Source of the DNA: Lentisphaeria bacterium
GTDB lineage: Bacteria; Verrucomicrobiota; Lentisphaeria; Victivallales; Victivallaceae
DNA: 41,552 nucleotides
Assembly: GCA_017505415.1 (NCBI GenBank)
Contig: JAFVPG010000166.1
Location: forward strand, 1 to 41,552
Direction of reading: 5' to 3'
Below, in pieces: positions 1-12,926 of this stretch. The position numbers were made by a program, and so were the translations under genes. Every line of letters starts with the position of its first letter. Position 1 is the stretch's first letter. The notes beneath the pieces are model-generated. The model saw only the letters and a program-made list of their open reading frames with translations. It was not told the DNA's origin and searched no databases.

Positions 1-130
1 CGCGGCGTTCGCTGCTTGGCAATTTCTTGCCTGCGCTCACTTCGCTGACGCTCGTGAACCGCTCCTTGCTCGCGGCGCTAACCGCGCTTTACTTACTCCG
101 AGAGAGCTTATATACTTTATTCAAAAAGTA
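1..130. other. Non-coding GC-rich edge segment
   Basis: I see no gene here. The first 90 bases are clearly more GC-rich than the AT-rich spacers elsewhere in the window and are full of short CGCT/GCTC-type units. A small inverted repeat, CGCGG at 71-75 with CCGCG at 82-86, closes the GC-rich part. The look is that of a dispersed intergenic repeat or the end of one, but only one copy lies in the window, so this cannot be tested here. Confidence 0.3.
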
Positions 131-223
131 CCCTTTTCTTTTTTGAAAAGGTGGAGGGTCTTAGGGAGGCGGAAAAATCTTTTTTTCTTTTAATCAAGAA
201 AAAAGTTTTTCCGCTTCCCTAAA
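131..223 (-). terminator. Two stacked inverted repeats downstream of the GH130 gene
   Basis: A long imperfect stem pairs 163-190 (AGGGAGGCGGAAAAA...) with 197-221 (...TTTTTCCGCTTCCCT), about 25 bp with a very short loop. A second hairpin, CCTTTTC at 132-138 with GAAAAGG at 145-151, follows on the minus strand and is succeeded by GTACTTTTTG. Together they lie just after the stop codon of the leftward GH130 gene, where a terminator is expected. The T-tract behind the first stem is poor, so this may instead be a structured repeat that also works as a terminator. Confidence 0.45.
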
Positions 224-242
224 AAACTTCCGATAAACAATA

Positions 243-1301
243 TTATTTCACATATTGTTTAACGTGAGCCAATGCTTCTTTGAAGGAAAATTCAGCAAGA
301 CCGATATAAACATCACCGCAGTCGTAATACATCATAACATTATCACCGATTACCACGTTGGCGCACGGGAATACACAATGCAAGCCTCTGCCGTTATGTT
401 CATAATCCATTTCGGGAGCGAAGATCGGTTCAGGTGTGCGGGCGAGGACTTTGGTCGGATCTTCACGGTCAAGCAGAGCCAAGCCGACATAATATTTACC
501 CATACGGTCGACACCGTGATAAGTCATCAGCCAGCCATCATCGGTCGGAATCGGAACACCTGAACCGCCGACTTTCATTTCTTCCCATTTTTGTTGGGGA
601 GCAAGCAGCAGAACTTCATTCATAATATCTTCGCCGTCGATCATATCCCAGCCCATTTCACGCTTGTTTGTACTCCAGAAATCAAGTCTGTCGGAAAATG
701 CCAGCCAGATACAGCCGGGGTGGTAATGCAGGGGCAAAGTCCACGGATGAAAAGCAGTCGGACGGTGAAGCATGGCATATTTGCCGTTGATTTTTTCGGG
801 GAACAATGCAACATTGGCATCTGAAATGTGTTCGCTGGTGATCGGACCTAATTTTTCAAATGTTTTGAAATCCTTTGTGACAGCCAGACCGACACGGCGG
901 TAGTTGTCAAACCAGCTCGGATTCAAATTGCCATTCGGTCCGCATGTACGTGCGCCGAAAGCATAGTCACGGATATTTATCGCACGACCTGCATAAGCAA
1001 TAACATATTGACCTTCAAGATAAGTCACTCGGGCATCTTCACAGCCTGCATGGTCAAAAGTTCCGGGATTGATGTCGCCATCCATCCACGGCTCGTCATT
1101 CTCTTCAAAATGATAACCGTCCTTGCTCCATGCGTAACCGAGACGGATAACTCCGTCATGCGGTTTCGGATCGGCGGTAAAGACCATGTGAAATTTTTCA
1201 CCGTCATAAACAACACCCGGATTGCGGGCGGAACCCCGCCAGCGAACGCCGGGAATGGGACTTAAAATCGGATTGCCGGGATAACGTTTAACTTTCAACA
1301 T
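243..1301 (-). CDS. Glycoside hydrolase family 130 protein (mannoside phosphorylase-like)
   Basis: A 352-residue protein of the five-bladed beta-propeller GH130 type. Known GH130 enzymes phosphorolyse or hydrolyse beta-mannosidic bonds, releasing mannose 1-phosphate in the phosphorylases. Visible family signatures are the N-terminal RYPGNPIL, GCEDARVTYLEGQYVIAYAG (the E-D-x-R segment carrying the catalytic Asp), DGWLMTYHGVD (phosphate/sugar site) and a C-terminal YYDCGDVYIGLAEF. There is no signal peptide, so it should be cytoplasmic. The ATG at 1301 is chosen because AAAGGAG lies five bases upstream; an in-frame TTG at 1316 would swallow that site. It follows the regulator gene by 11 bp and forms a bicistronic unit with it. 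The subfamily and exact substrate cannot be fixed by eye. Confidence 0.88.
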   Translation of the reverse strand: MLKVKRYPGNPILSPIPGVRWRGSARNPGVVYDGEKFHMVFTADPKPHDGVIRLGYAWSKDGYHFEENDEPWMDGDINPGTFDHAGCEDARVTYLEGQYVIAYAGRAINIRDYAFGARTCGPNGNLNPSWFDNYRRVGLAVTKDFKTFEKLGPITSEHISDANVALFPEKINGKYAMLHRPTAFHPWTLPLHYHPGCIWLAFSDRLDFWSTNKREMGWDMIDGEDIMNEVLLLAPQQKWEEMKVGGSGVPIPTDDGWLMTYHGVDRMGKYYVGLALLDREDPTKVLARTPEPIFAPEMDYEHNGRGLHCVFPCANVVIGDNVMMYYDCGDVYIGLAEFSFKEALAHVKQYVK

Positions 1302-1312
1302 AAAAACTCCTT

Positions 1313-2392
1313 TCAATTTTCTTTTATTTCAGGTTGTAATCTGATAATTTTTTCAGTAATTTTTTCATTTGATTTCAAAAGTTGGATTGCTTTCATAACC
1401 ATTTGTGAATAAGCAACCTGCATGGTTGGAAATTTCCATTGTTTTGAAATATTCGGGAAAAGACAGTCATATCCTGTAACCATGACATTTCTGACATTTT
1501 CAGCGGCAAGTGCCTGACATGCCCCTTCTGCAATCAAATCATTGACACAGAAAATCGCTTGAGGACGACGCCCGGAACGCAAAAGTTTGGTAATTGCAAG
1601 AAAGGCATTCTGAACCTGCCCCCCTCTCTCAATATGGATAATATCTTCCTTGTTGATATTTACAAAATAATCGTTGAATGCGGTCAATGCTCCTTTCAAA
1701 CGGTTATGATATGTGCGATCTTCGACCTGCAGTTTTACGGACAGCATGACAACATCATTGCAGTCATGGGCGATGATATATTCTGCCATTTTGTATGCCC
1801 CGTGATAATTGTCATTGACAATGGCGAACATATTCGGCGGCAAATCATTGAGTTTTTTCATTACATAGTTGATAAAAAAGAATTTCTGTTCCGGAAATTT
1901 GTTTGCCAATTTGATAGTTTCGTCAAATTTATCGGAATCAAGGACGATAACACCTTTGCAATCAAATTCGGCGGAGTTTTTGTAACGGTTTATTACTGAT
2001 TCAGGATTGTCGCAAATAAGCACCGGAGTTATATTGTTTTCTGCACTTCCCTGCAAAAGTCCGCAATAGAAAACACTTGAAAGCGGATGTTCAAGCGGTG
2101 TATCTGAATTATATTGAGTCCATACCGCACAAACGGGGTGTTTGATTAAATTTGCAGAGGCTCCGACGAAAGTACCTTTTTTCGGACGTTTGAAACATAC
2201 TCCGTCTTTTATGAGTTCTTGTACAGCAAGGTATGCCGTCCTGATGCTGACACCAGCATTTTCAGCAATAACATTTACAGCAGGTAAAGCTGTTCCCTCC
2301 GGATATTTACCACTTTTAATATCAGACAGAATAGTATTTTTCAGCTGAATATAAACAGGTATCTTACCTGCCGGCTGATTGTAAATATTCAT
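1313..2392 (-). CDS. GntR-family regulator with LacI-type ligand-binding domain
   Basis: A 359-residue transcription factor. Residues about 8-78 form a GntR winged helix (PVYIQLKNTILSDIKSGKYP, then LPAVNVIAENAGVSIRTAYLA and a GTFVG wing). Residues about 90-355 resemble a periplasmic-binding/LacI sensor domain (FDCKGVIVLDSDKF, MAEYIIAHDCNDVVML, AIFCVNDLIAEGACQAL). Such proteins usually repress sugar-catabolic genes until a sugar binds. The ATG at 2392 has AAGGTG eight bases upstream. The gene leads a two-gene unit with the GH130 enzyme, and its own promoter carries an operator-like repeat, so autoregulation is likely. It is a distant paralogue of the regulator at 33492-34613, which has nearly the same promoter region. 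Confidence 0.88.
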   Translation of the reverse strand: MNIYNQPAGKIPVYIQLKNTILSDIKSGKYPEGTALPAVNVIAENAGVSIRTAYLAVQELIKDGVCFKRPKKGTFVGASANLIKHPVCAVWTQYNSDTPLEHPLSSVFYCGLLQGSAENNITPVLICDNPESVINRYKNSAEFDCKGVIVLDSDKFDETIKLANKFPEQKFFFINYVMKKLNDLPPNMFAIVNDNYHGAYKMAEYIIAHDCNDVVMLSVKLQVEDRTYHNRLKGALTAFNDYFVNINKEDIIHIERGGQVQNAFLAITKLLRSGRRPQAIFCVNDLIAEGACQALAAENVRNVMVTGYDCLFPNISKQWKFPTMQVAYSQMVMKAIQLLKSNEKITEKIIRLQPEIKEN

Positions 2393-2407
2393 ATTGCACC
2401 TTGTTTA

Positions 2408-2464
2408 TACTATGATTTTACTTTGATTTTACCATAATATACAACTGTAAATAAAATTTGTCAA
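2408..2464 (-). promoter_or_regulatory. Promoter plus putative operator of the GH130 regulator gene
   Basis: On the minus strand TTGACA (2464-2459) and TATATT (2441-2436) are separated by exactly 17 bases, a near-perfect sigma70-type promoter. The -10 runs directly into TATGGTAAAATCAAAG and then TAAAATCATAGTATA, giving two GTAAAA half-sites (direct repeat) between -10 and the ribosome binding site. The same layout and nearly the same bases stand before the second GntR gene at 34631-34685. A protein bound here would cover the -10 and the start of transcription, which suggests autorepression. Confidence 0.75.
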
Positions 2465-2511
2465 GACAAAAGAATTTTTTTTCCAAAGTTTTTAAAAAAA
2501 ATACACAAGCA

Positions 2512-2545
2512 AAAAAAAGACCCGCATTTCTGCGAGTCTTTTTTT
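2512..2545 (-). terminator. Rho-independent terminator of hydCBA
   Basis: On the minus strand, 17 bases after the hydA stop codon, GACTCGCA and TGCGGGTC pair across a GAAA tetraloop (8 bp with one G-T pair) and are followed by a run of T. A matching run of T also follows on the plus strand, so it could work both ways, although no plus-strand gene points at it. Confidence 0.88.
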
Positions 2546-2561
2546 ATAAAAATCAATCCGA

Positions 2562-4304
2562 TTATTTGGAATGATATTCAGTATGAAGCAGGTGATGTGC
2601 TTTTTCACTGCCGGGTTTGCCGAGGAACTCTTTGTAGAGAGCCTGGATATCCGGGTTTTCGTGAGAACAACGCATAACTTTGCGTTCATCTTCTGTATAC
2701 AGACCTTTCATGCGCTTTTCAAGCAATTCGGCATCGCCGTGGAGGAAGGGCTGACCGCCGCCGTTGATACAGCCGCCGGGACAAGCCATGATTTCGATTG
2801 CCTGGAAACGGTTTCTGTCGGCACGAACCATATCGAGAACTTTGCGGGCATTACCCAAACCGGAGCAGACTGCAACGTTGATGGTTTTGCCGGGAGCGAT
2901 TTCGACTTTGGCTTCTTTGATACCGTCAAGACCGCGGACTGCACGGAAGTTGATTGCATCGCCTTCGAGGTTTTTGCCGTTGAGCATGAAGTAGACAGAA
3001 CGGCATGCAGCTTCGAGAACACCGCCGGTAACACCGAAGATGTCAGCAGCACCGGCAGATTTGCCGAGCGGATTGTCATATTCTTCATCATCCATGTTGG
3101 CGAGGTTGATACCGGCTTCTTTGAACATCTTGCAGAGTTCACGGGTGGTAACGACGAAGTCAACATCACGGACGCCGTTGGGAGCGAATTCGGGACGTGC
3201 GGCTTCATATTTTTTGGCCTGACAGGGCATGATTGAAACAACGATCAAATCTTCGGGTTTGACGCCGATTTTTTCAGCATAGTAGCTCTTGGCGATAGCG
3301 CCGAACATCTGCTGGGGAGATTTGCAGCTGGAGGGGATGTTCAACAAATCAGGATAGTTGTGTTCGATGAAGTTGATCCATCCGGGGCAGCAGCTGGTAA
3401 GAATGGGAAGGTTTTTGCCTTCTTTGATACGTTCAACGATTTCGTTGCCTTCTTCCATGATGGTAAGGTCAGCGGAGAAGTTGGTGTCAAAGACTTTGTC
3501 AAAACCGAGGGCGCGCAAACCTGCAACCAATTTACCGGTGACAGGGACGCCGGGAGCAAATCCGAATTCCTGACCGACAGCGACACGGACTGCAGGAGCA
3601 GTCTGAACGATGACAGTTTTGGTGGGATCATTGATAGCTGCCCAGACTTTTTTGACATAGCTGATACCGGTGATGGCACCGACGGGACAGACATTGACAC
3701 ACTGACCGCAGAAGGTACAGCTGGTATCTGCCAGAGGAATCATGCTGGCGGTACCGACTTTGGCTTTGAAGCCGCGGCCGTAACCGGTCAAAGCGCCGAC
3801 AGTCTGAACTTTGGAGCAGACGTTTTCGCAACGGCGGCACATGACACATTTGGAGAGGTCACGCATAATTGCGCCGCTGGATTGGTCGGGCTGAAAGAAG
3901 TTGATTTCGCCCTGATATTCAATATCGGTGATACCGAATTCAACAGCGAGCTTCTGGAGTTCGCAGTCGGTATTTTTGGGGCAGGTCAAGCAGTTTTTGG
4001 GGTGATCGCTGAGCATAAGTTCAACAACTGTACGGCGGGCGCGGAGAGCGCGCAGTGAGTTAGTGTGAACGACCATGCCTTCTGCAACAGGAGTTGCACA
4101 AGCGGGGGCAAGGTTGCGGCGTTTTTCGACTTCGACTACGCAAACGCGGCAGCTGGCGGGTTTATTGCATTCGCCGTTGCCCAGGTGGGCGCAGTAGCAG
4201 AGAGTCGGAATATTGATATTAAGCTGGCGGGCCGCCTGCAAAATTGTATAGTTTGCAGGAACAGTTACGGCTTTGCCGTTGATAGTGAGATTTACAGTAG
4301 ACAT
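2562..4304 (-). CDS. hydA: [FeFe] hydrogenase catalytic subunit HydA
   Basis: A 580-residue group A [FeFe] hydrogenase, expected to be the H2-forming subunit of a soluble HydABC complex. In order: [2Fe-2S] domain with C36, C46 (region LCYCAHLGNGECN), C52, C55 and C69; a His-Cys cluster motif H101-x3-C105-x2-C108-x5-C114; two [4Fe-4S] ferredoxin motifs (C153-C163 and C196-C206); and the H-cluster domain with L1 TSCCPGW (303-309), L2 MPCQAKKYEA (from 359) and L3 MACPGGCINGGGQP (from 506). All H-cluster cysteines are present. The extra C-terminal iron-sulfur domain of Thermotoga maritima HydA is absent. The ATG at 4304 gives the usual family start and has GGAG upstream; it lies 8 bp after the hydB stop, and an upstream in-frame start would overlap hydB. 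No maturation genes (hydE, hydF, hydG) are in the window. Confidence 0.95.
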   Translation of the reverse strand: MSTVNLTINGKAVTVPANYTILQAARQLNINIPTLCYCAHLGNGECNKPASCRVCVVEVEKRRNLAPACATPVAEGMVVHTNSLRALRARRTVVELMLSDHPKNCLTCPKNTDCELQKLAVEFGITDIEYQGEINFFQPDQSSGAIMRDLSKCVMCRRCENVCSKVQTVGALTGYGRGFKAKVGTASMIPLADTSCTFCGQCVNVCPVGAITGISYVKKVWAAINDPTKTVIVQTAPAVRVAVGQEFGFAPGVPVTGKLVAGLRALGFDKVFDTNFSADLTIMEEGNEIVERIKEGKNLPILTSCCPGWINFIEHNYPDLLNIPSSCKSPQQMFGAIAKSYYAEKIGVKPEDLIVVSIMPCQAKKYEAARPEFAPNGVRDVDFVVTTRELCKMFKEAGINLANMDDEEYDNPLGKSAGAADIFGVTGGVLEAACRSVYFMLNGKNLEGDAINFRAVRGLDGIKEAKVEIAPGKTINVAVCSGLGNARKVLDMVRADRNRFQAIEIMACPGGCINGGGQPFLHGDAELLEKRMKGLYTEDERKVMRCSHENPDIQALYKEFLGKPGSEKAHHLLHTEYHSK

Positions 4305-4312
4305 AGTTTCTC

Positions 4313-6244
4313 TTACTCCATGACAATAGCTTTTTTCGGGCATCCGTCGATACAGGCACCGCATTTAATGCACTTGGTCTGATCGATGACATGCAGCTGT
4401 TTAAGTTCACCGGTGATGGCGTTGACGGGGCAGTTGCGTTTACATTTGGTACAACCGATACAACTGTCGTTGATCTTGAGGGTGAAGAGCTTGCGGCAGG
4501 TACCTGCGGGACATTTCTTGTCACGGACGTGAGCAAGGTATTCATCCTTGAAGTAGCGCAAAGTACTCAAAATCGGGTTGGGTGCTGTCTGACCGAGACC
4601 GCAGAGAGCAGTATCAGTAATGGTTTTGGCGAGGTTTTCGAGATCGACAAGCATTTCTTCAGTACCGTTACCGTCGCAGATTTTTTCGAGCATTTCGAGC
4701 ATGCGGCGGGTACCGATACGGCAGGGAGTGCATTTACCACAGGATTCATCTTTGGTAAAGTCGAGGTAGAATTTAGCCATAGCAGGCATGCAGTCCTTAT
4801 CAGAAAGAACGATCATACCGCCGGAACCCATCATAGAACCGATTTTGGCAAGATTGCCGTAGTCGATGGGGGTATCAAGGTTCTCAGCAGTGATACAGCC
4901 GCCGGAGGGACCGCCGGTCTGAACAGCTTTGAATTCACGGCCGCCGGAAATACCGCCGCCGATTTCATAAATGATTTCGCGGAGGGTGGTTCCCATGGGA
5001 ACTTCAACGAGACCGACGTTGTTGATCTGACCTGCAAGAGCGAAAACTTTGGTACCTGCGTTACCGCTGATGGTACGTTTGAAGTTGCCGTTTTCGTCAA
5101 ATTCAGCCTGCCAGTTACCGATTTTACTGTACCATGCAGCACCTTTGCGGATGATTTCGGGAATGGTGGCATAAGTTTCAACGTTATTGACGTTGCTGGA
5201 GCAGCCCCAGTAACCGCCGCCGACGTTTGCGGGGAACGGTGGTTTGGTGGTGGGTTCGCCGCGCTGACCTTCCATAGAGTGGATAAGAGCAGTTTCTTCA
5301 CCGCAGACGAATGCACCTGCACCAAGTTTGATTTCAATATCAAAGCTGAAATCAGTACCCATGATGTTGTCGCCGAGCAAACCGATTTCACGGGCCTGCT
5401 GGATAGCTTTTTCCAAACGGGCAACTGCCAGCGGATATTCAGCACGGATGTAAACAAGACCTCTCTGTGCGTTGATAGCATAAGCGGCAATAGCCATAGC
5501 TTCGATCACGGAGTTGGGGTCGCCTTCCATGATGGAGCGGTCCATAAATGCTCCGGGGTCGCCTTCGTCAGCGTTGCAGATGACATATTTTTCATCAGTT
5601 TTGACGCCGGCGGCAATTTTCCATTTGAGACCGGTGGGGAAACCTGCACCGCCGCGGCCGCAGAGACCGGAGTTGAGAACTTCCTGAACGACAGTTTCGG
5701 GTTTCATTTCAAAAAGACATTTGGCGAGAGCCTGATAGCCCTGATTTGCGATATATTCACTGATGTCTTCGGGATCGAGCAAACCGCAGTTACGCAGAGA
5801 AATACGTTCCTGTTTAGCATAGAAAGACATTTTTGCATAGTCAGCAACGCGTGATTTGAGCTGGGGTTCGACGAAAAGCAAACGTTCAACAAGTTCTTTG
5901 CCGACGATGTGTTTTTCAACGATTTCATCAGCATCTTCAGGAGTGACCTGAACGTAAAAAACGTTGTCAGGCATAACTTTGACGATAGGACCCTGTGCGC
6001 AGAAACCGAAACAGCCGGTCTGAACGACTTTGACATCATTTTCAAGACCTGCTTTTTTGATATTTGCGGTGAGACGTTCCATCAACTCTTTGGAGTTGGA
6101 AGCATGGCAACCGGTACCGCCGCAGCAGAGAAGTTCTTTTTTGACAGATTTGATGTCATGTGCTGAAGTTTCGCGCAAAACGAGTTTGCCTTTGCATTCA
6201 TTGTATGCGGCAATGAGACATTCTTTGGAATTGATTTTATTCAT
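4313..6244 (-). CDS. hydB: NADH-dependent [FeFe] hydrogenase subunit HydB (NuoF-like)
   Basis: A 643-residue flavoprotein subunit related to NuoF. The N-terminal third begins with a thioredoxin-like [2Fe-2S] domain (LLCCGGTGCHAS and later QTGCFGFCAQGP). The NuoF core follows with FMN/NAD-binding stretches GRGGAGFPTGLKWK and CNADEGDPGAFMDRS, then a [4Fe-4S] site SCGKCTPCRIGTRRM with its fourth ligand in ALCGLGQTAP. The C-terminus adds two ferredoxin motifs (SCIGCTKCKRNCP and KCIKCGACIDGCP). In known HydABC complexes this subunit binds NAD(H) and is the site of flavin-linked electron confurcation or bifurcation. It starts 3 bp after hydC stops and ends 8 bp before hydA, so the three are one transcription unit. 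The ATG at 6244 has AGGGG upstream. Confidence 0.94.
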   Translation of the reverse strand: MNKINSKECLIAAYNECKGKLVLRETSAHDIKSVKKELLCCGGTGCHASNSKELMERLTANIKKAGLENDVKVVQTGCFGFCAQGPIVKVMPDNVFYVQVTPEDADEIVEKHIVGKELVERLLFVEPQLKSRVADYAKMSFYAKQERISLRNCGLLDPEDISEYIANQGYQALAKCLFEMKPETVVQEVLNSGLCGRGGAGFPTGLKWKIAAGVKTDEKYVICNADEGDPGAFMDRSIMEGDPNSVIEAMAIAAYAINAQRGLVYIRAEYPLAVARLEKAIQQAREIGLLGDNIMGTDFSFDIEIKLGAGAFVCGEETALIHSMEGQRGEPTTKPPFPANVGGGYWGCSSNVNNVETYATIPEIIRKGAAWYSKIGNWQAEFDENGNFKRTISGNAGTKVFALAGQINNVGLVEVPMGTTLREIIYEIGGGISGGREFKAVQTGGPSGGCITAENLDTPIDYGNLAKIGSMMGSGGMIVLSDKDCMPAMAKFYLDFTKDESCGKCTPCRIGTRRMLEMLEKICDGNGTEEMLVDLENLAKTITDTALCGLGQTAPNPILSTLRYFKDEYLAHVRDKKCPAGTCRKLFTLKINDSCIGCTKCKRNCPVNAITGELKQLHVIDQTKCIKCGACIDGCPKKAIVME

Positions 6245-6247
6245 GAC

Positions 6248-6766
6248 TTACCCCTGTTTTTTGTATTCGTTGACGATTTCAACCGCTTTGGCGGGGGTAA
6301 CTTTGCCATAGACCTTGCCATTGACCATCATGACGGGAGCAAGACCGCAGGCACCTACGCAGCGCAAGCCGGAGATGGAGAAAAGGCCATCTTCAGTGGG
6401 ATGTGTATCAGCTTTGACACCGAGGACACGTTCAACTTCGGACATGACTTTTTCTGCACCTTTGACGTAACATGCAGTACCGAGGCAAATATCAATGCAG
6501 TATTTACCTTTGGGTTCAGTGTGGAAATAGTTATAGAAACTGACGACACCGGAGACTTGAGCTTCGGTAAGATAAAGTTTTTTTGCGACATGCTGCTGGA
6601 CTTCACGGGGCAGGTATCCGAAGATAGCCTGAGCCTTGTGCAGGACTTGGATAAGTCTGCCGCGGCGGCGTTCATCAGCAGGGTCGACGTTGAGAGTGGC
6701 AATAAAAGCGTCAAGTTCAGCGAACTTGGCAGCTGCCGCCTCTGACATTTGTTTGCAACAACACAT
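6248..6766 (-). CDS. hydC: [FeFe] hydrogenase subunit HydC (NuoE-like)
   Basis: A 172-residue thioredoxin-fold [2Fe-2S] protein of the NuoE family. The cluster ligands are C94, C99, C136 and C140 in CLGTACYVKGA and RCVGACGLAP. The helical N-terminal part (RGRLIQVLHKAQAIFGYLP) is typical. It passes electrons to or from the HydB flavin. I place the start at the ATG at 6766 because GGAGAG lies six bases before it; an in-frame ATG at 6778 has no ribosome binding site and would swallow that one. The N-terminus MCCCKQM is unusually cysteine-rich and outside the cluster motif. It is the first gene of the hydCBA unit and is preceded by a structured leader. Confidence 0.93.
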   Translation of the reverse strand: MCCCKQMSEAAAAKFAELDAFIATLNVDPADERRRGRLIQVLHKAQAIFGYLPREVQQHVAKKLYLTEAQVSGVVSFYNYFHTEPKGKYCIDICLGTACYVKGAEKVMSEVERVLGVKADTHPTEDGLFSISGLRCVGACGLAPVMMVNGKVYGKVTPAKAVEIVNEYKKQG

Positions 6767-6859
6767 AATTCTCTCCATGTTATTTGTTTACGGTCGATTT
6801 GCAGATATTATTAATATACTGTATAAAAAACCCTTGACCACAAAGGCAGGGAACATCAC

Positions 6860-7051
6860 AAAATAAAAAAGTTCCGCAAATTTGCGGAACTTCAAAGTAT
6901 ACATAAATTTTACGGCTGTTGTTTTAATTGTATCAGCGGAAACAAGATACATTTCCTTTACATCTGTAATTTCTGCAAAATTTCTGCAGTCAGAAAACAT
7001 GTTGTAATGCATAAGCAACATCCTTTTAATACAATACATTCAAAACACCGT
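6860..7051 (-). ncRNA. Candidate small RNA or attenuated leader upstream of hydC
   Basis: A transcript from the promoter at 7057-7085 would run leftward to the hairpin at 6869-6892, about 180 bases, and then, if not terminated, into hydC. The stretch contains an SD-like AAAAGG followed nine bases later by an ATG at 7012, opening a 75-codon frame (to 6788) whose codons span the hairpin. It begins MHYNMFSDCRNFAEI and resembles nothing I know. Either an independent small RNA, a leader peptide with attenuation, or plain untranslated leader would fit. Nothing matches a riboswitch class that I recognise. Confidence 0.3.
6861..6892 (-). terminator. Perfect palindromic hairpin with T-tract, 100 bp before hydC
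   Basis: The 24 bases at 6869-6892 are a perfect palindrome (AAGTTCCGCAAA and its complement). Read on the minus strand, the stem ends in AACTTTTTTATTTT, which is a standard intrinsic terminator. It points toward hydC, with no recognised gene between it and hydC, so it can terminate a small RNA or attenuate the operon. Confidence 0.65.
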
Positions 7052-7056
7052 ATATT

Positions 7057-7085
7057 AATATAGCACATATTTACATAAAAAGCAA
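7057..7085 (-). promoter_or_regulatory. Promoter of the hydCBA leader
   Basis: On the minus strand TTGCTT (7085-7080) and TATATT (7062-7057) are 17 bases apart. Transcription would start near 7050 and read through the leader hairpin to hydC. I see no second promoter of equal quality between the hairpin and hydC. Confidence 0.55.
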
Positions 7086-7456
7086 ATCAAAATACATTTT
7101 TTTGTCAATATCCCGGCAGTGATCCTTTTATGTGACGATAGTAAAAGTAAACGCACCTCAAAGTCTGATCGACACCCGCCTGATTGACTGCTGTCACTAT
7201 CTTTTACTGAAAATTCAGTACATTATGGCACATCATACCCCAAATACCGCCATTGACTTTTCGCGAAATAAATGGGGTATTTTACAAAAAGTTAATGTCA
7301 CGAATTTTGTGAAAAATAAAATTACTTCATAAAAGTGCATCTGACATTACACAAAAATTTCAGATAACAACTTGTATTTTTCAAAAACACATATAACAAA
7401 ACTATTACCAATAATACTTTTTTGCATATAAAGTAACAATTTATTTTGTTTTTCAC
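7086..7456. other. Divergent intergenic region between hydCBA and purL
   Basis: No convincing gene. Several inverted repeats are present: ATACCCCA (7235-7242) with TGGGGTAT (7273-7280), enclosing TTTCGCGAAA; TACTGAA-AA-TTCAGTA (7205-7220); and AGTC-T-GATC (7162-7170) with GATTGACT (7182-7189). They lie upstream of both predicted transcription starts, so if functional they are more likely protein-binding sites or an unannotated RNA than a leader. A 66-codon GTG frame from 7132 has no ribosome binding site and no recognisable product. No purine riboswitch consensus is visible. Confidence 0.4.
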
Positions 7457-7485
7457 TTGTTTTTAAGCGGTTTATGGTGTAAATT
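7457..7485 (+). promoter_or_regulatory. Promoter of purL
   Basis: TTGTTT (7457-7462) and TAAATT (7480-7485) are separated by 17 bases, with TGGTG just before the -10. The predicted start near 7492 leaves a leader of about 40 bases before the ATG at 7534. Confidence 0.55.
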
Positions 7486-7533
7486 ATATATGAGTAATTG
7501 TACTTTAATCTTTTAAAAAAAGGATATGATATT

Positions 7534-10506
7534 ATGGATCACAGAATTGTTCTCTCTCCTCTTGAAAACTGGCGTGATGCCCGTGGCGAAGGCACCAAAA
7601 AACAGATCGAAAATTTCCTCAAAATCAACGTTGACAAAGTCGCTACCCGTGACGTCTACACAATTCATGCCGATATCAATGCCGATGATGCAGCAAAAAT
7701 CGCCGCCCTCCTCGTCAATCCCGTACTGCAATCATGGAAAGCCGGTGATGCCGCTTCCGAAAATGACAAAGCTCCCGCAACTCCCGACTTCATCGTAGTC
7801 ATCGGATTCAAACCCGGTGTCACCGACAACGTCGGACGTTCTGCCAAAGCCGCTGTTTCCGATATTCTCGGCAGAAAACTCGGCGAAAACGAACACGTTT
7901 TCAGCTCTGTCGAATACCTCCTTTACGGCAAAAATCTCACCGAAAATAATGCAAAAACCATCGGTGTCAAACTCCTCGGAAATGAACTCATTCAATCCGT
8001 TACCGTTCTGCCAGGCACAGAAATCAACAATATCCCACTCAATCTGCCTTTGATCGAAGGTTCAACTGCCGGTACAGTTCATGAATACAACCTCGAAGTT
8101 TCCGATGAAGGTCTTATGGAAATCAGCCGCAAAGGCACTCTCGCTCTGACTCTTGAGGAAATGAAATCAATTCAAAACTATTTCCGCAACGCCGTCGGCA
8201 GAAAAGAAGTCGGTCTCAACCAGAACCCCACCGACGTCGAACTCGAAGTACTCGCTCAGACTTGGTCTGAACACTGCAAACACAAAATCTTCTCCGCCGT
8301 CATTGATTACGAAAATGCTGAAACCGGCGAAAAAGAAACTATTGATTCCTGCTACAAATCTTTCGTCAAAAAAAGCACCAACGAAATCGCCGAAGAAGTC
8401 TACTGGCTCGTTTCCGTTTTCCACGACAACGCCGGTGTTATCGCTTTCAATGACAAAGTCGACCTCGTTTACAAAGTCGAAACTCACAACAGCCCCTCCG
8501 CTCTCGATCCTTACGGCGGCGCAATGACCGGTATTGTCGGCGTCAACCGTGACCCCATGGGAACTGGTCAGGGCGCAGAACTCCTCATCAACGTCTGGGG
8601 CTACTGCCTCGGTTCTCCCTTTACCGAAGATAAAGACGTTCCCGAAGGCCTGCTCCATCCCCGCCGCTTGCGTGACGGTATTCACAAAGGTGTTATCGAC
8701 GGCGGCAACCAGAGCGGCATCCCCTACGGCATGGGCTGGGAATATTTTGAAGACAGATACCTCGGCAAACCTCTCGTCTACTGCGGTACTGTCGGTCTGC
8801 TTCCCAAAAAGATCGGCAATGTCAAAGGTTCTGAAAAATCCATTAAAGACGGCGATCTCATCGTTATGGCAGGCGGCCGTATCGGTAAAGATGGTATCCA
8901 TGGTGCAACCTTCTCCAGTGAAGAACTTCACAAAGACAGTCCCGTTCAGGCTGTTCAGATCGGTGACCCCATCACCCAGAAAAAGATGTCAGACTTTATC
9001 TATGAAGCACGCAACAAAGGTCTTTACCGCTTCGTCACAGACAACGGTGCAGGCGGTCTCTCTTCCAGCGTCGGCGAAATGGCTGAACTCTGCGGCGGCT
9101 GCCGTATGGACCTTGCCAAAGCTCCGCTCAAATATGCCGGTTTAAATCCGTGGGAAATCCTCGTTTCCGAAGCTCAGGAACGTATGAGTTTCGCTGTTCC
9201 CAAAGAAAATATTGAAGAGTTCAAAGCTCTCGCCAAACTCCGTGATGTCGAAGTCACCGTCATGGGTGAATTTACCACCGACGGTAAATTCTGCATGACC
9301 TGGGGCGACAAAGTCGTTGCCAACCTCGACATAGACTTCATGCACGGCGGTTTGCCCAAACTTCATCTCAAAGCAAAATGGCAGACTCCGAAATTTGAAG
9401 AACCCTGTCTCTGCGGTCGTAAACTTGCCGATGACATCACTGCTATGGCAGGCAGATTGAACATTTGTTCCGATGAATTCAAAGCACGCCAGTATGACCA
9501 CGAAGTTAAAGGCTTGAGCGTCATTAAACCCTTCGTCGGCAAATGCCGCGACGTCCAGTCCGATGCAACTGTCACCATGGCAGAACAGCTCGGTACTGAA
9601 GGTATTGTCCTTTCCGGCGGTATTCTCCCCCGTTACAGTGACATTGATACCTACTGGATGACTGCTTCAATCATCGACCTTGCCATCCGCCGTATTATTG
9701 CTGTCGGCGGCAAACTCGGTCACATCGCAGGTCTTGACAACTTCTGCTGGCCCGATCCCGTTCAGAGTGAAAAAACTCCTGACGGCGAATACAAACTCGC
9801 CCAGCTCGTCCGTGCAAATCAGGCTCTTTACAACTTTACCAAACTTTTCAAAGTTCCCTGTATCTCCGGTAAGGACAGTATGAAGAACGATTCCACCAGA
9901 GGCGGCAAAAAGATTTCAATTCCGCCCTCAATTCTCTTCAGTGCGATTTCCAAAATGGACGATATTTCCAAAGCTGTAACTCTGGATTTCAAAAAGGCAG
10001 GCGACCTCGTCTATGTGATCGGTGATACCAAAAATGAATGCGGCGGCAGTGAATACTTCGCCATGCTCAATGCTACCGGCAACAACGTTCCCAAACTCGA
10101 TGCAGCCAAAGCCATCGAAATTTACACCAACGTTTCCAATGCCACCGAAGCAGAAATCATTCACTCTCTCACCACTCCCGCTCTCGGCGGTCTTGCCATG
10201 TCTTTTGCCCGTTCAGCAATGGGCGGCAGACTCGGCTGCACCATTGACTGCGCCAAGATCCCTGCAAGCGAAAAGATGAACTCTCTTGAACTTCTCTTCT
10301 CTGAAAGCAACAGCCGCTTCGTTGCAACTGTTTCTCCCGCAGATAAAGAAGCATTTGAAAAAGTTCTCGGCAACATTCCTTTCGCCTGTGTCGGTACTGT
10401 CGATGACAGCGATGAAATCAAATTTGTCAATACCTCTGAAGGTACATGCAGTGTCAAACTTGATGCTCTCATCAAGAATTACAAAGGCACTCTTGACCAG
10501 ATCTGA
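7534..10506 (+). CDS. purL: Phosphoribosylformylglycinamidine synthase, PurS-PurL fusion
   Basis: A 990-residue enzyme of purine synthesis that makes FGAM from FGAR, ATP and ammonia. The first 230 residues or so look like the PurS-like N-terminal region of large PurL proteins; the linker and two AIRS-like halves follow (TWSEHCKHKIFSAVI; THNSPSALDPYGGAMTGIV; DNGAGGLSSSVGEMAE; then SGKDSMKND and SLTTPALGGLAMSFARS in the second half). It ends at KGTLDQI, directly after the second AIRS half. The C-terminal glutaminase (PurQ) domain of the 1200-1300-residue single-chain enzymes is absent, so a separate PurQ must supply ammonia; none is in the window. The ATG at 7534 has AAAGGA nine bases upstream; a TTG at 7498 lacks a site. 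The downstream dus gene follows by 17 bp. Codon choice suggests strong expression. Confidence 0.93.
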   Translation: MDHRIVLSPLENWRDARGEGTKKQIENFLKINVDKVATRDVYTIHADINADDAAKIAALLVNPVLQSWKAGDAASENDKAPATPDFIVVIGFKPGVTDNVGRSAKAAVSDILGRKLGENEHVFSSVEYLLYGKNLTENNAKTIGVKLLGNELIQSVTVLPGTEINNIPLNLPLIEGSTAGTVHEYNLEVSDEGLMEISRKGTLALTLEEMKSIQNYFRNAVGRKEVGLNQNPTDVELEVLAQTWSEHCKHKIFSAVIDYENAETGEKETIDSCYKSFVKKSTNEIAEEVYWLVSVFHDNAGVIAFNDKVDLVYKVETHNSPSALDPYGGAMTGIVGVNRDPMGTGQGAELLINVWGYCLGSPFTEDKDVPEGLLHPRRLRDGIHKGVIDGGNQSGIPYGMGWEYFEDRYLGKPLVYCGTVGLLPKKIGNVKGSEKSIKDGDLIVMAGGRIGKDGIHGATFSSEELHKDSPVQAVQIGDPITQKKMSDFIYEARNKGLYRFVTDNGAGGLSSSVGEMAELCGGCRMDLAKAPLKYAGLNPWEILVSEAQERMSFAVPKENIEEFKALAKLRDVEVTVMGEFTTDGKFCMTWGDKVVANLDIDFMHGGLPKLHLKAKWQTPKFEEPCLCGRKLADDITAMAGRLNICSDEFKARQYDHEVKGLSVIKPFVGKCRDVQSDATVTMAEQLGTEGIVLSGGILPRYSDIDTYWMTASIIDLAIRRIIAVGGKLGHIAGLDNFCWPDPVQSEKTPDGEYKLAQLVRANQALYNFTKLFKVPCISGKDSMKNDSTRGGKKISIPPSILFSAISKMDDISKAVTLDFKKAGDLVYVIGDTKNECGGSEYFAMLNATGNNVPKLDAAKAIEIYTNVSNATEAEIIHSLTTPALGGLAMSFARSAMGGRLGCTIDCAKIPASEKMNSLELLFSESNSRFVATVSPADKEAFEKVLGNIPFACVGTVDDSDEIKFVNTSEGTCSVKLDALIKNYKGTLDQI

Positions 10507-10523
10507 TTTTAAGGAAGAACATT

Positions 10524-11486
10524 TTGAGCCGCATCGAAATTTATCCCGGAAATGCGCTGATAATGGCGCCGCTTTCGGGTTTTACCGATGCGGCATACCG
10601 CCGTTCTCTTTACAGACACGGCTGTAAGTTTGCATTTACTGAGATGGTTGATGTCAGCGCAATGGCGTACAGGACTCAATCATCTTTTTTCATGCTAAAG
10701 CGGTCAGAAGAGGATAAATTTCTCGGCTGTCAGCTGGTCGGAAGTTCCGTTGAGCATGCAAAAATCGCCATGCAGGAACTGAAAGCATACGATTTTGATG
10801 TGATTGACCTGAATCTCGGCTGTCCCGTTCCCAAAGTTGCCAAAAAAGGCGCAGGTGCCGCACTCGGCAGAAATTTTGAACTTGCCAAAGCCATATTCTC
10901 CGTCATTGCTGACAATGCCAAATGTCCGGTTACTGCCAAACTGCGCATTGTTGATGCCGACGATGTCGAACCGACTCTGCAACTCGTCAAAATGCTCGAA
11001 GATTGCGGAGCAAGTGCAATCACAATTCATGGCAGAATCAAAGAGGCATTTTATTCCGGTCCGGTAGATTTTGAACAGATACGCCTCTGCCGCGAAACTC
11101 TTTCCATCCCGGTAATTGCCAATGGCGGAGTAATGAATTTTGACAATTACTCTGAAATCAGAGAGCAGACGGGATGTGACAAAGTCATGCTTGCACGGGG
11201 GGCGATGGGTAATCCGTGGCTTTTTGACGAACTGCAAAATAATAAAACTTTTGAACGTCCTGATGTCTTTGAACTTGCCGAAGAGATAAGACTGCATATC
11301 ACTGATACCTGTAATCTTTACGGTGAAGATCAGGGAATGAAACTTTCCCGGAAAATCGTTCACGACTATCTCAAAGGCAGAGGATTCAAAAGTTCGTACC
11401 GTGCAGAAGCCTCTCAAATGGCTCAACTTGAAGATTTACACAATTTATTGAAAAAATTATGCGATGAGTACGGAAATAAACCTTGA
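10524..11486 (+). CDS. dus: tRNA-dihydrouridine synthase
   Basis: A 320-residue FMN enzyme that reduces uridine to dihydrouridine in tRNA. The TIM-barrel signatures are clear: MAPLSGFTDAAYRR at the N-terminus, LNLGCPVPKVAKKGAGAAL with the catalytic Cys, KLRI, ITIHGRIKEAFYSG, IPVIANGGV and ARGAMGNPWLF for flavin binding, then a short helical C-terminal domain. The start is a TTG at 10524, seven bases after AAGGAAG; the N-terminus MSRIEIYPGNALIMAPLSG is of normal length. It is co-transcribed with purL (17 bp gap). Which Dus subfamily (DusB-like seems most likely) cannot be fixed from motifs alone. Confidence 0.92.
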   Translation: MSRIEIYPGNALIMAPLSGFTDAAYRRSLYRHGCKFAFTEMVDVSAMAYRTQSSFFMLKRSEEDKFLGCQLVGSSVEHAKIAMQELKAYDFDVIDLNLGCPVPKVAKKGAGAALGRNFELAKAIFSVIADNAKCPVTAKLRIVDADDVEPTLQLVKMLEDCGASAITIHGRIKEAFYSGPVDFEQIRLCRETLSIPVIANGGVMNFDNYSEIREQTGCDKVMLARGAMGNPWLFDELQNNKTFERPDVFELAEEIRLHITDTCNLYGEDQGMKLSRKIVHDYLKGRGFKSSYRAEASQMAQLEDLHNLLKKLCDEYGNKP

Positions 11487-11535
11487 AAAATAAAATTATG
11501 AGTGTATTTTCTTATATCAGAAAAGGAGTTTGAAT

Positions 11536-11916
11536 ATGAAATATTTTTATCTGCTGATTTTTGCATTGCTGACATTTTTTACATCCGGCTGTACCACCAT
11601 GCTTCCTGCAGAAGATATAAAGATTTATGAAGTCTGCAAAGAGGAAATAGCTGTTTTGAAGAATCCGAAAATTCCGTCACACAGCAAGGAAAAATATGAA
11701 GCGGCACTTTCTCTCTGCAAAAAAGTCGATTTCAGCTACACCCGCACAGTCAAATTTTTGAGTACGATTTTTCTTGAATCCGATGCTCGCGTAAATAATC
11801 AGGGATACGGCAACATGATTATCATCATGTATTATCCCTACGAAGACAAATTTGTGAGCTTTGAATTTCACCGTTACAAAAATCATATCCTGCGCTCGAA
11901 CATCAGATATAAATAA
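11536..11916 (+). CDS. Small putative lipoprotein of unknown function
   Basis: A 126-residue protein with a lipoprotein signal: MKYFYLLIFALLTFFTSGC, in which SGC with preceding hydrophobic core resembles a lipobox (Cys19), although the -3 residue is Thr rather than Leu. The mature part is small, charged and has a hydrophobic strand (GNMIIIMYYPYEDKF) and a basic end. I recognise no family. The ATG at 11536 has AAAAGGAG seven bases upstream, which is why I do not use a TTG at 11530. It sits between dus and the lipoate ligase gene; a weak promoter (TTGAAA, 16 bases, TATTTT) may lie at 11484-11511. Confidence 0.7.
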   Translation: MKYFYLLIFALLTFFTSGCTTMLPAEDIKIYEVCKEEIAVLKNPKIPSHSKEKYEAALSLCKKVDFSYTRTVKFLSTIFLESDARVNNQGYGNMIIIMYYPYEDKFVSFEFHRYKNHILRSNIRYK

Positions 11917-11936
11917 TTGTACATAAACACTTTATC

Positions 11937-12926
11937 ATGACTCGATTCTTCTATCAAAAAACCACTGACAGTGCATTCAATCTGGCACTGGAAGAATTGC
12001 TGGTGCGGGAATCTGATGAGGAAATATTCTATCTCTGGCAGAATGCTCCGGCAGTCATTATCGGCAGAAATCAGAATACACTGGCAGAAATAAATTCCGA
12101 TTTTATCCGTGCCAAAAATATCAATGTCACCAGACGCAACACCGGCGGCGGTGCAGTTTATCATGATCTCGGCAATATAAATTACAGTTATATAACCAAT
12201 TTTGAAGAAGGAAAAAGCATAAACTTCGCCGATTTTGCAATTCCAATAATAAAAACTCTTGCAGAATCCGGCATACATGCTGAATTTTCCGGCAGAAATG
12301 ATATTCTTATCGATGGTAAAAAAATTTCCGGCAGTGCGCAGAGCCGCATCGGCAGCCGCATACTTTTTCACGGAACTATGCTTTTTGACGTCAATATTGA
12401 AGATTTAGTCAATTCCCTCAATGTCAGCGGCATCAAAATATCCGGCAAAGGCATTGCCTCTGTCCGTTCCAGAGTTACAAATATTAAAGAACATTTTTCT
12501 CAAAACATTAATGTTAAAGATTTTATAAATTCAATATCAACATCTCTCCGGCGGCAATTCAATGTAACTCAAGACTATGTTGTCCCCGAAAAAATTATAC
12601 AGGAAGCTGAAAAACTGGCACAGACCAAATATCGTACATGGGAATGGAATTACGGCAACTCCCCGGAATTTAACTATGAAAAAAGCAGTAAATTCACCGG
12701 CGGCAATGTAACTTTGCAGCTGGATATTCAAAAAGGAAAAATCCTCAATGCGAAATTCAACGGTGATTTTTTCTCCCGTCAGGATGTATCACTGCTTGAA
12801 AAAACTCTCGAAAACGCAGAAATTTCAACAGATAATATCTCCATCCTTCTGGATTCCCTGCCCATCTCAGAAATGTTTCTCAACATAACTTCCGCAGAAA
12901 TCCTCTCCCTCTTCCCCGCTGTATAA
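11937..12926 (+). CDS. lplA: Lipoate-protein ligase A
   Basis: A 329-residue enzyme that adenylates lipoate and attaches it to lipoyl domains of 2-oxoacid dehydrogenase or glycine cleavage proteins. The catalytic domain carries VIIGRNQNT, the signature RRNTGGGAVYHDLGNINYSY, and GRNDILIDGKKISGSAQ with the lysine expected to contact the lipoyl-AMP. The last 85 residues or so are the small accessory domain of long LplA proteins (GNVTLQLDIQKGKILNAKF). No strong ribosome binding site precedes the ATG at 11937; the preceding gene ends 20 bp before, so translation may be partly coupled. No lipoyl-protein genes are nearby. Confidence 0.92.
   Translation: MTRFFYQKTTDSAFNLALEELLVRESDEEIFYLWQNAPAVIIGRNQNTLAEINSDFIRAKNINVTRRNTGGGAVYHDLGNINYSYITNFEEGKSINFADFAIPIIKTLAESGIHAEFSGRNDILIDGKKISGSAQSRIGSRILFHGTMLFDVNIEDLVNSLNVSGIKISGKGIASVRSRVTNIKEHFSQNINVKDFINSISTSLRRQFNVTQDYVVPEKIIQEAEKLAQTKYRTWEWNYGNSPEFNYEKSSKFTGGNVTLQLDIQKGKILNAKFNGDFFSRQDVSLLEKTLENAEISTDNISILLDSLPISEMFLNITSAEILSLFPAV

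Follow-up and report, generated by a model that had tools for sequence, protein, structure and literature searches.

The hyd operon and its leader

The locus considered here lies on contig JAFVPG010000166.1 (assembly GCA_017505415.1; 41,552 nt, referred to in full as the window), part of the metagenome-assembled genome of an uncultured Lentisphaeria, labelled G000, whose nearest named relatives are mostly Lentisphaeria of the ruminant gut. Its minus strand carries a hydrogenase operon in the order hydC-hydB-hydA, and the HydA protein scored 869 bits against the NCBIfam model NF040763 for NADH-dependent [FeFe] hydrogenases of group A6 (cut-off 765). The ORF call for hydC (6248-6778) begins 12 nt too early: the true start is the ATG at 6766, since the one at 6778 overlaps the Shine-Dalgarno sequence, which reads AACAGGGAGAG in relatives. 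The upstream neighbour of hyd is a divergent purL-like gene at 7498, and the stretch 7120-7215, between the hyd leader and this gene, contains rearranged GATAGTAAAAG-like copies on both strands (read by eye). The features discussed below are the following, with coordinates in the window:

2562-4364, minus strand, hydA, NADH-dependent [FeFe] hydrogenase group A6 (NF040763)
4313-6244, minus strand, hydB, NuoF-like FMN subunit
6248-6766, minus strand, hydC, thioredoxin-like [2Fe-2S] subunit (PF01257)
6788-7012, minus strand, leader ORF of 74 codons spanning both hairpins
6813-6840, minus strand, weak promoter-like site TGGTCA-16-TATATT, downstream of hairpin 1 and 46 nt before hydC
6825-6830, minus strand, U6 tract after hairpin 2
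6831-6851, minus strand, hairpin 2, weaker and terminator-like
6860-6868, minus strand, U-rich tract after hairpin 1
6868-6893, minus strand, hairpin 1, 11-pair stem, intrinsic-terminator-like, candidate attenuator
7021-7026, minus strand, Shine-Dalgarno sequence AAAGGA of the leader ORF, eight bases before 7012
7057-7085, minus strand, promoter-like site: TTGCTT (7085-7080), 17-nt spacer, extended -10 TGC TATATT (7062-7057)

Two terminator-like hairpins in tandem

The initial annotation described a perfect 24-base palindrome with a T-tract about 100 bases before hydC, and this was borne out: the palindrome AAGTTCCGCAAATTTGCGGAACTT occupies 6869-6892 within hairpin 1, and 101 nt separate the end of the stem from the hydC start codon. 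Folded alone, hairpin 1 reaches -15.9 kcal/mol (z -5.89, equalled by none of 200 shuffles), and it ranks first among the 19 terminator-like sites found in positions 1-12000; this class is mildly enriched over shuffles, and since these average 13.0 sites (sd 3.9) most of the 19 look like chance occurrences. Hairpin 1 has a GC-containing stem followed directly by its U-tract, on the coding strand and between a promoter called by sequence and the first gene, which is the arrangement of a terminator-attenuator. Behind it stand hairpin 2 and its U6 tract, absent from the initial annotation and found in the present analysis; folded alone, hairpin 2 is modest against shuffles, with 8 and 18 of 200 as good in the two species compared below.

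The palindrome occurs once in the 3.15-Mb genome, which rules out a repeat element, and allowing up to one mismatch adds a single unrelated site, on contig C45. A perfect 24-bp palindrome is also what a DNA operator for a dimeric regulator might look like; this reading is highly improbable in our view, as there is only one copy in the genome, as it lies about 160-180 bp below the putative transcription start, and as the U-tract that follows it is identical in a sister species.

Conservation of the leader in a sister species

A search of 137 genomes of the order with 6767-6900 gave short, weak matches in 35 other genomes and an extended match in G000 and G001 only, the exact leader being known from these two species. 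The G001 leader is referred to as locus L002; L031 denotes the same contig, listed by name. In an order-wide DNA search, five loci were inspected and two of them had the palindrome pattern, L121 with the exact inner 20 nt and no U-tract and L128 with an imperfect copy; both are taken as chance. A comparison with phage DNA gave no match.

Between G000 and G001, hairpin 1 with its U-tract and the following bases differs at 2 of 44 sites, compared with 158 of 464 four-fold sites in purL (34%) and 15 of 85 in hydC. These counts point to selection on hairpin 1, with a binomial P of 3e-6 against the purL sites and of 0.01 with hydC as the yardstick. Hairpin 2 keeps its architecture in G001 through compensatory changes in which pairs are exchanged, and is again followed by U5-U6. 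The upstream contexts of the two loci differ, a divergent purL in the window and, in G001, a same-strand ORF whose end is about 220 nt upstream of the leader ORF, so that the leader belongs to hyd and hairpin 1 is more than the tail of a neighbouring gene.

The sequence between the start codon and hairpin 1 has behaved quite differently, as 53 of 117 aligned sites differ there, spread over the three codon positions as 18/19/16. This part of the leader appears to have diverged to near neutrality, with no sign of selection on the peptide, and the missing codon-position signal upstream of hairpin 1 is the reason for rejecting a functional peptide; in a PHROGs search the window peptide had no match and the L002 peptide a single weak one (E 0.015). 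The comparison in relatives that had been proposed, for a conserved stem and a conserved peptide, is therefore answered in favour of the stem, in one sister species, and against the peptide. The same divergence speaks against an abundant trans-acting small RNA with conserved sequence; an abundant small RNA had been offered as one explanation of the layout.

A translatable frame of constant geometry

That a short frame with a ribosome-binding site starts at 7012 and crosses the hairpin was confirmed, and its L002 counterpart (2092-1868) also has 74 codons. In both species the distance from start codon to hairpin 1 is exactly 120 nt and the Shine-Dalgarno sequence is in the same place, AAAGGA aligning with the AGG of L002. 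The frame before hairpin 1 contains two alignment gaps of 3 nt each. After hairpin 1 there are gaps of 2 nt and 7 nt and the registers differ, so that the two frames across hairpin 2 do not share descent; both nevertheless continue without a stop almost as far as the ribosome-binding site of hydC. The longest leader ORF in the window uses this frame too but begins at ATG 7039 and has 83 codons, a length equalled in 3 of 2000 dinucleotide shuffles. From ATG 7012 to hairpin 1, the frame was open in 197 of 5000 shuffles of the window and in 142 of 5000 of L002: its openness is moderately unlikely by chance, and the evidence for the frame is suggestive. The window presents a leader ORF with a Shine-Dalgarno sequence running across a terminator-like hairpin, the layout of the pyrBI type.

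Promoter-like sites

The presence of a promoter upstream on the same strand, as first annotated, is supported in the form of the promoter-like site at 7085-7057. This site matches the consensus at 8 of 12 positions plus the TG, lies 290 nt before hydC, has the top score within 420 nt of hydC in the window, and is the sole promoter-like site conserved between the window and the sister species; transcription would accordingly be expected to start near 7050. In both species the strongest promoter-like site is upstream of the leader ORF.

The weak site at 6813-6840 bears on another reading, in which transcription of a separate short RNA (a small mRNA or sRNA) stops at the hairpins and hydC is served by a promoter of its own below hairpin 1, with no attenuation. 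Two terminator-like hairpins in tandem suit the end of a transcript, and TGGTCA-16-TATATT is suitably placed in the window. Against this, the site is not kept in L002, where its -10 falls in the 7-nt gap and where the best score within 125 nt of hydC is 8, compared with 11.5 for the upstream site; moreover, neither RNA nor peptide is conserved upstream of hairpin 1. The promoters of other relatives, described next, also weigh against a separate transcript, which we regard as somewhat unlikely.

Leaders in other relatives

We collected 77 loci with a hydC at least 76% identical. Removing duplicates left 53, and in 50 the sequence extended 160 nt or more upstream of the gene. In 13 of these 50, including the window and L002, a terminator-like hairpin stands 10-160 nt ahead of hydC, where shuffles predict 0.23, a comparison in which the 50 loci are mutually related and not independent trials; the other 37 had none so defined. 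In the eight rex-free leaders compared, a TTGnnn/TATATT site was top-scoring in every case, with the extended -10 TG in seven and lacking in L069. The top site of L033, L036, L044 and L069 stands 74-143 nt ahead of hydC; in the window, L002, L034 and L035 the distance is 290-318 nt. L036 and L069 place the same promoter type at 74-78 nt, the point that counts against the separate transcript. All four long leaders have a leader ORF; those of L034 (52 codons) and L035 (54 codons) have a Shine-Dalgarno sequence and stop just before a hairpin.

These ORFs matter for a further reading, namely that the hairpin is a constitutive partial terminator, or an RNA-stabilising structure, that sets the hydrogenase level with no regulated input and with the ORF incidental. 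Such a hairpin would be conserved while the peptide is not, as found here, and would have neither an Rfam match at the gathering score nor a 5'-arm antiterminator common to both species. It would not explain why the 120-nt spacing, the Shine-Dalgarno sequence and the 74-codon frame are equal in both species despite 53 changes in 117 sites, nor why L034 and L035 also have leader ORFs, and we consider this reading unlikely.

Searches for sensors and antiterminators

Searching the window against Rfam at the gathering score gave no match. With the threshold relaxed to E 1, the region 6740-7500 returned two microRNA families and GcvB (E 0.022, 21.3 bits against a cut-off of 42), all far below cut-off, so that no riboswitch or other known RNA family was recognised. 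Pairing of an antiterminator with the terminator's 5' arm did not exceed chance in the window (222 of 300 shuffles as good). By contrast, a GCGGAAC motif in the 5' UTR of L002 pairs with the terminator 5' arm at -13.5 kcal/mol, which only 3 of 300 shuffles match. This motif lies in an extra stretch of 5' UTR of the G001 leader (L002:2092-2155, minus strand) and is a species-specific antiterminator candidate; because of this pairing, another mechanism is possible in L002. Candidates for pairing with the 3' arm were modest in both leaders (16 and 29 of 300 shuffles as good).

The pairing in L002 would suit a riboswitch-like or trp-like attenuator with an alternative antiterminator stem, as would the folding of 6767-7085, which is better than that of shuffles (z -3.85, a figure that includes hairpin 1). 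Such an attenuator is nonetheless improbable, given that the window has no 5'-arm antiterminator, that the leader before hairpin 1 is not conserved and that Rfam recognised nothing: an antiterminator pairing conserved in both species, as in trp, was not found. No redox or metabolite sensor came to light, and with no Rfam match at the gathering score and no shared antiterminator pairing the earlier suggestion of redox- or metabolite-linked attenuation is not supported.

Proposed mechanism

The reading that we favour, tentatively, is that the hyd leader contains a conditional intrinsic terminator (an attenuator) for which translating ribosomes act as the antiterminator. Transcription of the hyd operon would begin at the promoter near 7050 and first cross a leader of about 285 nt. 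Hairpin 1 and its U-tract, with the weaker hairpin 2 behind, would form an intrinsic terminator at which most transcripts are cut early. A ribosome on the 74-codon ORF, following close behind RNA polymerase, would cover the sequence of hairpin 1, 120 nt past the start codon; hairpin 1 could then not fold and polymerase would reach hydC, while polymerase without a coupled ribosome would terminate. What would matter is the act of translating across the stop, the peptide not being the product. Such ribosome-coupled antitermination fits because a translatable frame across the terminator keeps its geometry while its sequence drifts. It agrees with the initial proposal that translation of the frame could alter termination: the anatomy, a conserved hairpin lying within a frame that has a ribosome-binding site, speaks for this, and an effect of translation on termination is its natural reading. 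Regulation of the hydrogenase by the leader is what this arrangement suggests, and the operon would probably be switched on only once transcription passes the stop.

Ribosomes on the short frame would most likely work here as in E. coli pyrBI. The leader gene of that operon, pyrL, is given as 135 bp (PMC4824070); ribosomes are described as suppressing the terminator inside it (PMC4824070, PMC5021804), and coupling across pyrL as required to prevent the terminator from forming (PMC5021804). In both systems an intrinsic terminator lies within a short leader ORF, the hyd hairpin beginning 120 nt into its 74 codons, which is slightly past the coupling range cited in that work, and the coupled ribosome that prevents termination in pyrBI is proposed, by analogy, to do so in the hyd leader. 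Unlike pyrBI, the hyd leader precedes a hydrogenase operon, has two terminators in tandem and is known from sequence alone, and no U-rich pause signal or link to UTP was identified in it. Attenuators of the trp/his type share the succession of leader ORF, terminator and structural genes; their ORF, however, ends before the terminator whereas that of hyd runs through it, and the hyd leader has no run of regulatory codons in the peptides of the window or the relatives and no conserved 5'-arm antiterminator.

The leader is real and conserved, and probably an attenuator of a known kind in a new setting. Limited searches of the open-access literature found no paper on hydrogenase operons together with transcription attenuation and leader peptides, or on Lentisphaerae together with structured RNA motifs and hydrogenase; a wider open-access search for leader ORFs with tandem terminators also found nothing. 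If the reading is true, control of H2 production in these ruminant-gut bacteria would act on transcript elongation, and the two leaders, with the same geometry and diverged sequence, would constitute a compact test of peptide-independent, ribosome-driven antitermination.

Rex and the rex-hydC intergenic region

Many relatives have a Rex-like gene directly upstream of hydC (detected by match to the Rex-like protein of L038), as in Rex-regulated hydrogenase operons, and PF06971, the Rex N-terminal domain, was matched beside hydC in G017 and others. This domain was matched in 15 of the 18 genomes examined and had no match in G000, G001 and G060, which are 84.5, 87 and 91% complete; a search of G000 with the L038 protein also gave no match. 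Loss of rex in these three incomplete genomes is likely. It is conceivable, as a speculation to which we give little weight, that in a Lentisphaeria lineage that lost Rex the control of hydrogenase passed to a leader with translation as the sensor, in which sequence and peptide turn over while the start-to-terminator spacing, the length of the frame and the tandem terminators persist, and which would couple H2 metabolism to translation or energy status.

In rex-linked loci, the intergenic region carries other structures. Within the 130 nt before hydC, two hairpins were observed in L040, L042, L076, L086, L087, L088, L092 and L095: the first has a purine-rich loop with GGAGG and stems such as GCCGCC/GGCGGC, GCCGTC/GACGGC, ACCGCTT/AGGCGGT and GCCGG/CCGGC, and the second, in most loci, has a CCG/CGG core before hydC. 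Of 25 rex-linked loci, 10 have a hairpin with GGAGG or GGGAG in the loop, where 1.05 would be expected; L063 and L041, both among the ten, look different. These rex-hydC intergenic hairpins are possibly an undescribed structured RNA.
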